The position numbers were made by a program, and so were the translations under genes. From contig NZ_OU015584.1 of the NCBI RefSeq assembly GCF_907165195.1, positions 2,490,978 to 2,554,977 on the forward strand: DNA of 64,000 bases, in the 5' to 3' direction. Below the pieces are notes generated by a model. The model searched no databases and was not told where the DNA came from. It saw nothing but the letters and a program-made list of their open reading frames with translations. This DNA comes from Parvicella tangerina (GTDB lineage Bacteria; Bacteroidota; Bacteroidia; Flavobacteriales_D; Parvicellaceae). This document shows, one piece after another, positions 4,212 to 37,805 of the stretch; the stretch's first letter is position 1; each line of letters begins with the position of its first letter.

Positions 4212-6101
4212 ATGCAACAAGGAACCATTAATATTCAGACGGAAAATATTTTTCCGATTATTAAAAAATTCTTGTACTCAGATACAGAGATCTTTTTGAG
4301 AGAGTTGGTATCAAATGCTGTCGATGCCTCTCAAAAATTGCGAACACTTTCAAAAACAGGTGAATTCAATCAGGAAATAAAAGACCTTAGGGTTGAAGTT
4401 ATTCTAGACAAGGATGCAAAAACGATCACCGTAAGAGATAATGGTATTGGAATGACTGCTGACGAAGTAGAGAAATACATTAATCAAATTGCCTTTTCTG
4501 GAGCGAAAGAGTTTGCTGAGAAGTACAAAGATAAAGATGCCAATGCCATGATTGGGGCTTTTGGTCTAGGTTTTTACTCCGCTTTTATGGTCTCAGAAAA
4601 AGTTAGGATCCAGACGTTGTCTTATCAAGATGGAGCCAAGGCAGTTGAATGGGAAAGCGATGGATCTCCCCAGTTCTCCATGAAAGAGATAGAAAAAAAT
4701 GAAAGGGGAACCGATATCATTCTTCATATTGCAGAAGATTCAACGGAATTTCTGGAAGAAGCTAGACTTAACGAGATCTTGAGTAAATACTGCAAGTTCT
4801 TGCCGATTGAGATCAAATTTGGAACAAGAAAAACTTTCGTAGAAGATCCAAGTGGAGAGAAAGATGAGAATGGCAATGTTAAGAAAATCGAGAAAGAGAT
4901 TGACAACATCATTAATAACACCTCTCCTGCATGGAATAAAACTCCGGCTGATTTAACCGAAGAAGATTACAAAAACTTCTACAATGAACTTTATCCGTTT
5001 ACGGAAGATCCGTTATTTCATATCCACTTGAACGTGGATTACCCATTTAATCTGACTGGGATTCTTTACTTCCCAAGACTAAAAAACAACATGGAAGTGC
5101 AGAAGAACAAGATTCAGCTGTATTCCAACCAAGTCTTTATCACGGATAATGTAGAAAATATTGTTCCTGACTTCCTGAATCTATTGCATGGGGTAATCGA
5201 CTCACCAGATATACCGTTAAATGTATCCAGATCTTACTTGCAAGCGGATAGTAATGTAAAGAAGATCTCTAATCACATTAACAAGAAGGTTGCTGATAAG
5301 TTGAACCAGATGTTTAAAGATGACAGAGAAGACTTTCAGTCTAAATGGGATGATATAGAAGTGTTCATTCAATACGGAATGCTTAGTGATGATAAGTTCT
5401 ACGACAGATCGGAGAAGTTTGCGCTATTGAAGAATACGAAAGATGAGTACTTCACTTTTGAAGAGTATAAAGAGAAGATCAAAGCAGCTCAAACAGATAA
5501 GAACGATAAGTTAGTTTGCCTGTACACGCACAGTGCAGACGCTCATCATGCATTGATTGAAAATGCTAACGACCGTGGATATGATGTTTTAGTAATGGAT
5601 AGTCCGTTGGCAAGTCATTACATTCAAAAGTTAGAAGGGAAACTAAACGTTTCATTCGCAAGAGTTGATGCGGATACGTTGGATAAATTAATCCAAAAAG
5701 ACGAAGAAATTCCATCAAAATTAAGCGAGAAGGAGCAAGAAAATCTGAAGCCTATTTTTGAGGGTAATGTCAACAAAGAAAAGTATGTGGTTCAATTTGA
5801 AAGCTTAAGTGAAACAGAAAAACCAGTTCAGATTACCCAAAGTGAGTTTATGCGTAGAATGAAAGAGCAACAAGCACTAGGTGGCGGTGGAATGCACATG
5901 ATGGGTTCTTTGCCTGAGATGTATAACCTGGTGGTCAACAGCAATCATCCTTTAATCTCAAAAATACTGGGAGAAAAGAATGAGGAAAAGCAGAAAGACC
6001 TGACCAAACAAGCTATTGATTTAGCGATGCTTTCAAACGGACTTCTCCAAGGTGAAGAATTGACTAAATTCATCAATCGAAGTCTTGAACTAATTGATTA
6101 A
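4212..6101 (+). CDS. htpG: Molecular chaperone HtpG (Hsp90 family)
   Basis: ATP-dependent cytosolic chaperone of the Hsp90 family. From the chosen ATG the product is 629 aa, the usual HtpG length, starting MQQGTINIQTENIFPII. The GHKL ATP-binding motifs are present: ELVSNAVDA, VRDNGIGM and the GAFGLGFYSAF lid segment. The middle domain has LPLNVSRSYLQ-type sequence (here IPLNVSRSYLQ). The frame is open to an ATG at 4077, but the extra 45 residues are unlike the family. A strong hairpin terminator follows directly, so it is probably monocistronic. It is transcribed divergently from the ECF sigma gene. Confidence 0.95.
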   Translation: MQQGTINIQTENIFPIIKKFLYSDTEIFLRELVSNAVDASQKLRTLSKTGEFNQEIKDLRVEVILDKDAKTITVRDNGIGMTADEVEKYINQIAFSGAKEFAEKYKDKDANAMIGAFGLGFYSAFMVSEKVRIQTLSYQDGAKAVEWESDGSPQFSMKEIEKNERGTDIILHIAEDSTEFLEEARLNEILSKYCKFLPIEIKFGTRKTFVEDPSGEKDENGNVKKIEKEIDNIINNTSPAWNKTPADLTEEDYKNFYNELYPFTEDPLFHIHLNVDYPFNLTGILYFPRLKNNMEVQKNKIQLYSNQVFITDNVENIVPDFLNLLHGVIDSPDIPLNVSRSYLQADSNVKKISNHINKKVADKLNQMFKDDREDFQSKWDDIEVFIQYGMLSDDKFYDRSEKFALLKNTKDEYFTFEEYKEKIKAAQTDKNDKLVCLYTHSADAHHALIENANDRGYDVLVMDSPLASHYIQKLEGKLNVSFARVDADTLDKLIQKDEEIPSKLSEKEQENLKPIFEGNVNKEKYVVQFESLSETEKPVQITQSEFMRRMKEQQALGGGGMHMMGSLPEMYNLVVNSNHPLISKILGEKNEEKQKDLTKQAIDLAMLSNGLLQGEELTKFINRSLELID

Positions 6102-35051: not shown

Positions 35052-35184
35052 TAACAACTGAGCGCTAAGAACTAAGAGCTAAAAACTAAGCGCTCATAAC
35101 TATCAAGTATCAACTATCAACTGTCAAATATCAATTATCAATTATCAAATATCAAATATCAACTGTCAATTATCAACTGTCAAA
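35052..35184. repeat. Heptanucleotide tandem array, 19 units
   Basis: Nineteen 7-bp units in perfect phase without any insertion. The first seven are variable (TAACAAC, TGAGCGC, TAAGAAC, TAAGAGC, TAAAAAC, TAAGCGC, TCATAAC); the last twelve follow T(A/G)TCAAN (TATCAAC, TGTCAAA, TATCAAT and similar). It is not coding and lies between genes. Confidence 0.85.
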
Positions 35185-35222
35185 TCGTATTATCGTTCGT
35201 CCTTCAATCGTTAATCCACCAT

Positions 35223-35376
35223 CCAGCGTCCAAAGTCAAGCATCCAACGTCAAGCATCCAGCATCCAGCATCCAGCGTCAAGCGTCAAGCGTCAAGCGTC
35301 CAGCATCCAGCGTCCAGCGTCCAGCGTCCAGCATCCAGCGTCCAGCGTCCAGCGTCCAGCGTCAAACATCCAACGT
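35223..35376. repeat. Heptanucleotide tandem array, 22 units of CCAGCRT type
   Basis: Twenty-two uninterrupted 7-bp units, mostly CCAGCGT, CCAGCAT, CAAGCGT and CCAACGT. The array ends 11 bp before the stop codon of the minus-strand gene at 35388. A 38-bp spacer with ATCGTTCGTCCTTCAATCG separates it from the first array. Confidence 0.88.
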
Positions 35377-35387
35377 CTAAATCAAAA

Positions 35388-36047
35388 TCAAACCACCCTC
35401 ACCCACTCCTGTTCATACTCCCCATCAAAGTAATTAGTGATCACCACCACCACTTGGTCTTCTTGCAAAGCAATCGGCACCTTAATATTCTGCAGATGAT
35501 CCTCAGGATACACAGTAAACTCGATAATATCTACTGCTTGCATATTCACATCCGCTTTAAACTTGTCTTTATACTTCCTTACTTTGGGCAGTGTACCGAT
35601 CAAGATCTTAATACGTGCCTCACGCTCAATTGCTGTGTCACAGCCCAAGATAATATCATCATCATGGAGACCTGCAGATATTGGCGGAAGCGTTTCCTTA
35701 AAGTTGAGCACCAGGCCTTTTACATGCTTTCTGATCTCCTGAAGGGGTAGATCCTCAATATCATGAGATAGAAGAACCTGACTAATTCTACTATAGAGTT
35801 TATTATGTGATTTGTAATCCGTTTTTTGGGCATACTCCTTTCCCATTCTATAAATTGCTGTAGCAAACGCATTCACCACCTTTAGATACTCATATCGATT
35901 GCGATGCCCCTCATAACAAGCATCTTCTTTTAATCGCTTGCTCATGTCAGCACGTTTTGTTCGAACAATAGTCCTTCCATTTCTTTTAAAAAAGACCACA
36001 TCTCCCAATTTACCATTCAAGTTCGCTATGCTTCTGACCTTTGCCAT
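35388..36047 (-). CDS. Unknown protein between heptad arrays
   Basis: Encodes 219 aa from the ATG at 36047 (MAKVRSIANLNGKLGDVVFF). The frame extends to 36089, but that N-terminus looks random. The first 45 residues, with LGDVVFFKRNGRTIVRTKR, recall short Bacteroidota proteins that share a GK-x-GD-x-VF...NG...VR pattern, but I cannot name a function. The C-terminus has alternating strands (VVVVITNYFDGEYEQEWVRVV). No signal or membrane helix. It is flanked by heptad arrays and has 11-bp direct repeats upstream, which is notable. Confidence 0.65.
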   Translation of the reverse strand: MAKVRSIANLNGKLGDVVFFKRNGRTIVRTKRADMSKRLKEDACYEGHRNRYEYLKVVNAFATAIYRMGKEYAQKTDYKSHNKLYSRISQVLLSHDIEDLPLQEIRKHVKGLVLNFKETLPPISAGLHDDDIILGCDTAIEREARIKILIGTLPKVRKYKDKFKADVNMQAVDIIEFTVYPEDHLQNIKVPIALQEDQVVVVITNYFDGEYEQEWVRVV

Positions 36048-36105
36048 ACTAGGTAAAAGACAACTATTGTTCCAAATTGACAAACACACGCATAATATGC
36101 CGCAT

Positions 36106-36149
36106 CACATAGGGGTCACATAGGGGTCATGAAGGTATCACATAGGTCT
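36106..36149. repeat. 11-bp direct repeats upstream of the 35388-36047 gene
   Basis: CACATAGGGGT occurs twice back to back (36106-36127), then one degenerate unit and CACATAGGTCT. The 11-bp period is about one helical turn, as in operator arrays. They lie 59 bp upstream of the gene start, so they could be a regulator-binding site. Confidence 0.55.
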
Positions 36150-36288
36150 CCCGCCATCCCTTAAAGCACCAACAACAGTACAACATACCCACCTTTATAG
36201 CACAAATACACGCCAACCATACGCCAAACACTCGACAAAACAACCAACTATACAACTGAAAAACTAAAGAACACAACAATATCATCCC

Positions 36289-36667
36289 TCAGCCATCAAC
36301 CATCAACCGTTTAGCGTCCAACATCAACCATCCAACAAATCGTTTAATCGTTCGTCCTTAAATCGTTAATCCAATATCAAATGTCAATTATCAACTGTCA
36401 ACTATACAACTATCAATTATCAAATGTCAACCGTCTAGCGTCCAACATCAACCATCCAACAAATCCTTTAATCGTTTGTCCTTCAATCGTTAATCCAATA
36501 TCAACTGTCAATTATCAACTGTCAACTGTCAAATATCAATTATCAAATGTCAATTATCAAATATCAACTATCAACTATACAACTATCAATTATCAAATGT
36601 CAATTATCAACTGTCAATTATCAGATGTCAACCGTCTAGCGTCCAACATCCAACGTCCAGCGTCCAA
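36289..36667. repeat. Second heptad-repeat region with a 124-bp higher-order repeat
   Basis: Long runs of TATCAAN and TGTCAAN heptads, mixed with CGTCCAA/CATCAAC heptads and the spacer type AATCGTTNGTCCTTNAATCG. A segment of about 97 bp starting at 36307 recurs at 36431 with few differences, so the period is 124 bp. One-base insertions (TATACAAC) break the phase in two places. It is non-coding. Confidence 0.8.
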
Positions 36668-36675
36668 ACCCACCT

Positions 36676-36712
36676 GTCATCCTGAGTGCAGTGCAACGCA
36701 ATGAAGGATCTC
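36676..36712. repeat. GTCATCCTGAG...GGATCTCC element
   Basis: GTCATCCTGAGTGCAGTG followed by GAAGGATCTCC. The same start and end recur at 37501-37539, and start-only copies are at 19437 and 49186. It is a dispersed non-coding element. Confidence 0.6.
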
Positions 36713-36760
36713 CTACTTAGAAGCACATTGCTCAACTTCAGAAAACCCAACCAAAACATC

Positions 36761-36798
36761 CCCCCTCCTCCGAGGAGGGGGTTAGGGGGTGGTAAACC
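36761..36798. repeat. REP-like palindrome followed by GGGGGTGGTAAACC
   Basis: Arms CCCCCTCCTC and GAGGAGGGGG around a single C form a 21-bp palindrome, then TTAGGGGGTGGTAAACC. Four further complete copies are at 37444, 37587, 48657 and 49284, and a truncated one at 41904, all in the same orientation. A related tail, CACTGCGTGAGGG...GGTGGTAAACC, follows at 36861-36890. Confidence 0.8.
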
Positions 36799-36932
36799 GC
36801 AATAACCTAATCCCCCCACCGATCAGCACTCTCCCCAACCGTAAGGAAAACCTGTCAAGCCACTGCGTGAGGGTCAGGGGGTGGTAAACCAACCCAAAAA
36901 AACACTAACTTTAGTCCTCAACTTATGAACTT

Positions 36933-37443: not shown

Positions 37444-37481
37444 CCCCCTCCTCCGAGGAGGGGGTTAGGGGGTGGTAAACC
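37444..37481. repeat. REP-like palindrome copy 2
   Basis: CCCCCTCCTC, C, GAGGAGGGGG followed by TTAGGGGGTGGTAAACC, identical in layout to the copy at 36761. It starts 11 bp after the stop of the preceding gene, so it could also act as a transcription terminator. Confidence 0.8.
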
Positions 37482-37500
37482 ACAATAACCTAATCCCACC

Positions 37501-37539
37501 TATCACCCTGAGCGAAGCACAGCGCAGCGAAGGATCTCC
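37501..37539. repeat. Dispersed CCTGAGCGAAG...GGATCTCC element
   Basis: ATCACCCTGAGCGAAGCAC then GCGAAGGATCTCC. It is the second complete copy of the element at 36676. Confidence 0.6.
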
Positions 37540-37586
37540 CCAATGGGAGCACATGACATACATTCAGAAAACCCTACCAAATCATC

Positions 37587-37624
37587 CCCCCTCCTTCGAG
37601 GAGGGGGTTAGGGGGTGGTAAACC
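37587..37624. repeat. REP-like palindrome copy 3
   Basis: CCCCCTCCT, TCG, AGGAGGGGG followed by TTAGGGGGTGGTAAACC. A CACTGCGTGAGGG-type tail copy follows at about 37687-37716. The region 37434-37805 holds only these repeats. Confidence 0.78.
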
Positions 37625-37805
37625 ACAACATCCTAATCCCCCCAACTATCAGCACTCTCCCCAACCTTAAGGAAAACCCGTCACGCCACTGCGTGAGGGC
37701 TAGGGGGTGGTAAACCACAAACAACCCAAGCACCCCCACCTAGAAACACATTACATACCTTCAGGAGATGCAATTGTATCGAGAACAACCATCCAATAAT
37801 AAAAA

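Follow-up and report, generated by a model that had tools for sequence, protein, structure and literature searches.

The stretch of DNA analysed in our study, a window of 64,000 nucleotides from Parvicella tangerina (contig NZ_OU015584.1, positions 2,490,978 to 2,554,977), carries beside one of its genes a long tandem array of degenerate seven-base units, and the question raised by this locus is where such an array comes from. Heptad arrays have been described over decades, and the STRR heptanucleotide repeats of heterocystous cyanobacteria were reportedly described by Mazel in 1990. We know of no accepted origin for these arrays, nor of a function for the S23/IVP proteins, which are common. 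Should heptad ends and S23 genes belong to a single inserted unit, the mobility of that unit, the role of the S23 protein and the origin of the seven-base step become testable, and such insertion units may explain where many heptad repeats come from.

The array is a run of 325 bases at 35052-35376 in which three related unit types share a single phase (Table 1). Its lag-7 self-match reaches 33 of 35 positions, whereas 500 shuffles that preserved the dinucleotides of the surrounding 3 kb reached 24 at most, so that the arrays described in an earlier note, made from the letters alone, are real. Period 7 gives three segments in the window, whereas periods 4, 5, 6, 8, 9, 10, 11 and 13 give 0-1; period 12 also gives three, two of them inside the heptads. 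The earlier note had counted 19 units of mainly TRTCAAN type, which holds for 12 of them, while the first seven are of a third type. The 38-bp spacer that it placed between the arrays does separate the main types, but it keeps the heptad phase: the RTC core spans 35102 to 35221 (119 = 17 x 7), and the seven-base phase holds across 35052-35388. Since the spacer and its junction (query 130-214) are found again in this genome, ungapped and with 82-85% identity, at about 3.913-3.915 Mb, the spacer is not chance filler. The array ends, as had been stated, 11 bp from the stop of a minus-strand gene, which belongs to an unnamed family that we label MAK. This gene stands between the first array and a second one, array B, for which the claim of no insertions fails, although it is correct for the first: array B has indels and contains a 124-bp tandem duplication (36303-36553).

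Table 1. Features of the heptad array locus (positions in the window)
Feature	Position	Strand
7 heptads of a third type (TAAGAAC, TAAGAGC, TAAAAAC and others), in phase	35052..35100	+
12 heptads TRTCAAN (RTCAANT phase)	35101..35185	+
Spacer in heptad phase, found again with its junction at further array sites in the genome	35186..35222	+
22 heptads CCAGCRT (RTCMARC phase)	35223..35376	+
MAK gene (family unnamed; label from the N-terminus), 219 aa	35388..36047	-
Direct repeats of 11 bp (plus-strand sequence TCACATAGGGG) located upstream of the MAK gene	36101..36153	-
Array B, with unit types, spacer and direction as in the first array	36281..36672	+
Open frame of 107 aa composed of array B, read as a non-gene	36381..36704	+

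With tandem 7-bp units, several loci, an intergenic position and a self-match above chance, the window arrays belong to the known STRR/LSSR class of heptanucleotide arrays (LSSR: Mrazek 2007, as quoted in PMC4679880); they resemble it in their degenerate 7-bp unit and in their many intergenic loci per genome, and differ from it in their words. The part of PMC4679880 used here reports heptad repeats from Bacteroidetes and Cyanobacteria, and TAACTGA direct repeats (MacGregor 2015, PMC4679880) from Cyanobacteria, Bacteroidetes and Beggiatoaceae. The latter are also intergenic heptads, with 7-nt indels between strains, but are taken in that part of the paper as possible translation-control sites before start codons, with S23 unmentioned there.

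The genome, one contig of 3.98 Mb that is 99.8% complete, has about nine array sites, at approximately 0.19, 1.62, 2.33, 2.53 (the window), 2.56, 2.87, 3.16, 3.20 and 3.91 Mb; the sites outside the window, like array B, were absent from the earlier note. Seven of the nine adjoin either an S23 gene (2.33 and 2.87) or a MAK gene (a fragment at 0.19, and 1.62, 2.53, 2.56 and 3.91). The background in this genome is low, with two heptad segments in 270 kb of random stretches and a heptad segment within 300 bp of 4 of 185 genes. A search for further runs and a comparison with sister strains had been proposed in the earlier note: the arrays do recur at other sites of this genome, but a four-unit pattern with 74 matches here has 0-4 in three genomes of the same genus, and the arrays are therefore lineage-specific. 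The rhomboid gene, used as an anchor for the orthologous locus in sisters, gave only partial matches (27-38% identity, in five of ten genomes). Across the order, five-unit RTCMA arrays were identified in 13 of 150 genomes, against 6 of 150 for the reversed control pattern. Genome G042 is rich in heptad arrays, with many different words and 108 segments over 800 kb; these lie beside genes of many kinds, and 106 of its 535 genes have an array within 300 bp. Among the matches listed for G042, the array strand is mixed where GC skew is mostly positive and mostly minus where it is mostly negative.

Outside the window, several arrays adjoin PF05635/TIGR02436 genes, which encode the 23S rRNA intervening-sequence or four-helix-bundle protein (here S23; solved structures 2gsc and 2rld), a link that goes beyond what the earlier note expected. 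In 13 genomes of the order, picked for holding RTCMA arrays, an array was found within 300 bp of 26 of 51 S23 loci (51 of the 57 listed PF05635 places were used) but of only 1 of 24 ParE toxin loci drawn from the same genomes (Fisher 3e-5), and periods 5, 6, 8, 9, 10 and 11 gave 1-6 of the same 51 loci. The contrast holds both in six low-background genomes (10 of 26 S23 loci against 8 of 389 random genes; 5e-9) and in G042, where 7 of 8 S23 loci have an array. Because the 13 genomes had been chosen for their arrays, we also took 80 named S23 loci that were found by protein alone. A heptad array lies within 300 bp of 42 of these 80, against 1 of 80 at 300-900 bp and 1-4 of 80 for other periods within 300 bp; farther out, heptads occur in 10 (900-1500 bp) and 5 (1500-2100 bp). 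It is important to note that these 80 are the best-scoring of 575 loci, that close relatives such as several Chryseobacterium are among them and the counts are uncorrected for relatedness, and that S23 gene coordinates in the array and flank counts are domain matches and not whole open frames. One PF05635 protein (L074, 7190-7564) shows a weak match to the retroelement protein Avd (NCBIfam E 7e-4; Pfam bAvd 0.0095).

The flanks of S23 genes are, in addition, inverted copies of each other. For 126 of 131 S23 loci (three had no open frame found, L152, L282 and L286, and two had short flanks), the upstream flank matched the reversed downstream flank at a score of at least 15 in 87 loci, compared with 3.4% for flanks of mismatched loci, whereas direct similarity reached that score in 21; the inverted match was better than the direct one in 104 loci and worse in 19. 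The 87 inverted arms have a median length of 31 bp and a seven-base period, with a self-match of 0.615 at lag 7 that drops to 0.26-0.31 at lags 4-6 and 8-11, and the 41 arms at loci where no array had been detected still reach 0.541 at lag 7. G exceeds C in 36 of 45 upstream arrays, and C exceeds G in 46 of 53 downstream arrays. A shared unit profile with an AG core was upheld by arms withheld from its construction (1.47, where 200 permutations reached at most 1.18); the window units fit this profile no better than permuted columns do (P 0.11-0.64). In 64 of 126 loci, where 11.5 are expected, the cognate flanks gave the best of 11 RNA duplexes. As the two arms of a unit match each other and not the arms of other units, what is kept would be pairing and the seven-base step, rather than a fixed end sequence. 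The sense duplex is the more stable in 77 loci and the other in 48. Selection at the RNA level on the stems is unsupported, because G.U (94) and A.C (106) mismatches on the sense strand are about equally frequent (P 0.44).

Evidence of insertion comes from plasmids. S23 matches on plasmids are mostly cyanobacterial (39 records), and of 20 such loci 10 have inverted arms at a score of at least 15 and four have direct ones, with a null of 5.6%; their arms include runs of GGGAACA, AGTAGGG and GAGTCAG, a few with an eight-base step. Wherever annotated (18 of 20), the neighbours are protein genes, and not 23S rRNA; some of these S23 genes lie within CRISPR-cas sets, in the cas6/cas4 and cas10/cmr3 intervals (L437, L447 and L444). 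Relatives were searched for six loci, each of which gave records that hold the flanks with no S23 feature beneath the match, and such records were compared for four of the six. Against Aulosira and Fremyella, Trichormus carries an inserted unit of 420 bp with an 8-bp overlap; in Scytonema this same insertion measures 406 bp, its 5' arm being two heptads (14 bp) shorter. Nostoc ATCC 53789 pNsp_a, compared with pNsp_c and Nostoc C057, carries a 413-bp unit with a 5-bp overlap, and compared with Nostoc C052 its ends have no overlap; pNsp_c itself has a unit of about 500 bp, with a 3-bp overlap relative to C052 and none relative to C057. The ends are not clean between Trichormus and Nostoc C052 pC052_E. 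In Picosynechococcus 7003/7002 and Nostoc C052/C057 the empty site has neither gene nor arms and holds 32 or 36 bp of its own. An insertion common to Nostoc C052 and N. edaphicum has 3' arms that are one heptad apart, and at the same junction a third plasmid has inverted heptad arms with no open frame of 30 aa or more. An empty site with a target duplication is thus clean in two cases (5 and 8 bp), the others being without a clean duplication. The inserted unit is arm, gene and arm together. Across these comparisons the arms are thus present or absent along with the gene, vary in length by whole heptads and can persist where the gene is missing.

Inverted ends, short target duplications and gene-less copies are known from MITEs and other terminal-inverted-repeat elements. 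The S23 units are similar in their inverted ends, in their two short target duplications and in one gene-less copy, but their ends vary by locus and match only within a locus, and no transposase was seen in them, from which we infer that help with movement would come from the host or from another element. The parts of PMC4990558 used here describe in the 23S rRNA of Coxiella an intervening sequence in which an S23 open frame is flanked by terminal inverted repeats and preceded by two or three tandem heptamers, whose number depends on the strain; this is an independent precedent for heptads by an S23 gene, although the present units lie between protein genes and both of their arms are heptad arrays. 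The passages available from accounts of STRR and LSSR make no statement of inverted arrays that bracket S23 genes, as cyanobacterial S23 genes are bracketed here. Literature titles and abstract openings, with subscription papers mostly outside, revealed no link between S23 and inverted heptad arms, which is weak evidence of novelty. The arrays alone are of a known kind, and the new part is their company with S23 genes.

We therefore propose, with much more firmness than we grant to any reading of the window, that S23 units are small insertions whose ends are heptad arrays. A complete unit is about 0.41-0.5 kb long, consists of a heptad arm, an S23/PF05635 four-helix-bundle gene and the same heptads inverted, and lies between genes of an operon. 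The window arrays are no such unit in themselves: the gene between them is a MAK gene and not a PF05635 gene, no S23 relic was found in the window by tblastn with 123 queries (best E 0.014, elsewhere), and the two arrays are direct, both reading RTC on the plus strand, with no inverted partner found. For these reasons they are classed as heptanucleotide arrays and not as an S23 unit. They are nevertheless 78-89% identical over 45-78 bp to the array that adjoins the S23 gene at 2.331 Mb, and the reading that we rank highest, although we hold it tentatively, is that they are orphan, expanded end-arrays of the S23 unit class. They would then descend from the arms of such units, arms that had lost, or had never had, the gene between them and that afterwards may have grown by gain of units beside a gene of another family. 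Slightly more tentative is the general form of the proposal, by which S23 genes would be the single gene of widespread mobile units of about 0.4-0.5 kb with inverted heptanucleotide-array ends, and a considerable fraction of heptad arrays in Bacteroidota and Cyanobacteria, those of the window included, would be the ends or relics of such units. Further observations count against descent of the window arrays from S23 arms: their units do not fit the AG-core profile better than permuted columns, arrays of this genome adjoin MAK genes (4 of 10 intact ones) more often than S23 genes (only 2 of 9 with an array detected within 300 bp), and most arrays in G042 adjoin other genes. Inverted arms as a feature of all G042 genes are ruled out, because strong array pairs around single genes there are inverted in two cases and direct in five.

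The alternative that survives best, although we consider it somewhat unlikely, is that these are ordinary heptanucleotide repeats, chance duplications grown by slippage or unequal exchange in replication with no element involved, whose nearness to S23 and MAK genes reflects tolerant intergenic sites. According to the lines of Mrazek 2007 quoted in PMC4679880, LSSR with 7-nt units form the most frequent class in the majority of genomes, with slippage put forward to account for them; the tandem duplication within array B and the many kinds of genes beside the G042 arrays point the same way. The units themselves argue against it. Similarity between adjacent units does not exceed that obtained when their order is shuffled (P 0.59 and 0.29; unit similarity at lag 2 has P 0.019 in the 1.617 Mb array), and plain single-unit slippage does not predict this pattern. 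Positions 2, 3 and 5 of RTCMANN (T, C and A) are invariant in 12 of 12 TRTCAAN units, 22 of 22 CCAGCRT units and 31 of 31 units at 1.617 Mb, that is, in 65 of 65. The earlier note was thus right that the arrays are not simple slippage microsatellites, since homogenisation of neighbours is absent and three positions never vary; its statement that units vary within each family is true of some positions only, as in the 12 TRTCAAN units T, C, A, A and the final T are fixed and two positions vary, and in the 22 CCAGCRT units only four do. The empty sites and the sharp association with S23 genes under same-genome and within-locus controls also speak against ordinary repeats.

An invariant TC.A core with free positions between and no local homogenisation is what an array of binding sites would show, if a protein read the core every 7 bp and acted on the neighbouring genes or the nucleoid. 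A 7-bp period might, as the earlier note had raised, give non-canonical structure or protein binding; the core is compatible with binding but proves nothing, and we consider the binding-site explanation improbable, since the words differ among genomes and among loci of one genome, the arrays have no orientation bias relative to neighbouring genes (20 to 13 in tandem pairs), and there is no candidate protein.

It is doubtful, too, that the arrays serve as a cassette device in which homologous recombination between direct arrays excises, duplicates or swaps the MAK gene. Both the window gene and its paralogue at 3.914 Mb (L044, 6287-6991) lie between direct arrays that contain the same spacer, an array lies within 300 bp of 4 of 10 intact MAK genes in this genome, compared with 4 of 185 genes (Fisher 2e-4), and a truncated MAK copy with the same 11-mers exists at 0.189 Mb; however, at 49 MAK loci, this genome included, heptads were found upstream in five and downstream in five, and MAK genes outside this genome are mostly without them (49 of 50 loci entered this count, and the membership of L426 and L427 is doubtful). 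Rho-type termination or insulation through the C-rich, G-poor RTC strand, with TC every 7 nt, is so improbable that we reject it, because orientation bias is lacking: the C-rich strand is the coding strand in 20 tandem pairs and the other strand in 13, and convergent and divergent gene pairs are balanced.

The MAK family matched no Pfam, PHROG or NCBIfam family and was absent from the viral contigs searched; a PDB profile search for its fold gave one match (4p99, E 2.7e-8), in which no stretch passes alone and which was set aside. Several copies of an 11-bp direct repeat lie upstream of the start in 17 of 49 MAK loci and downstream in none of the 49, and the repeated word differs for each MAK gene (the window, L188, L183, L066, L193 and others). 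The truncated copy comprises part of the window MAK gene and its upstream region (189.4-189.8 kb; L043, about 4360-4800), is 87% identical over 270 bp and has a heptad array about 120 bp beyond it. A dispersed repeat of about 225 bp, 86-87% identical between copies, adjoins the arrays, with copies at 36667-36894 and 37495-37716 and in L195 (407-634), and a 21-bp near-palindrome, CCCCCTCCTCCGAGGAGGGGG, is present in three copies at 36761-36781, 37444-37464 and 37587-37607.
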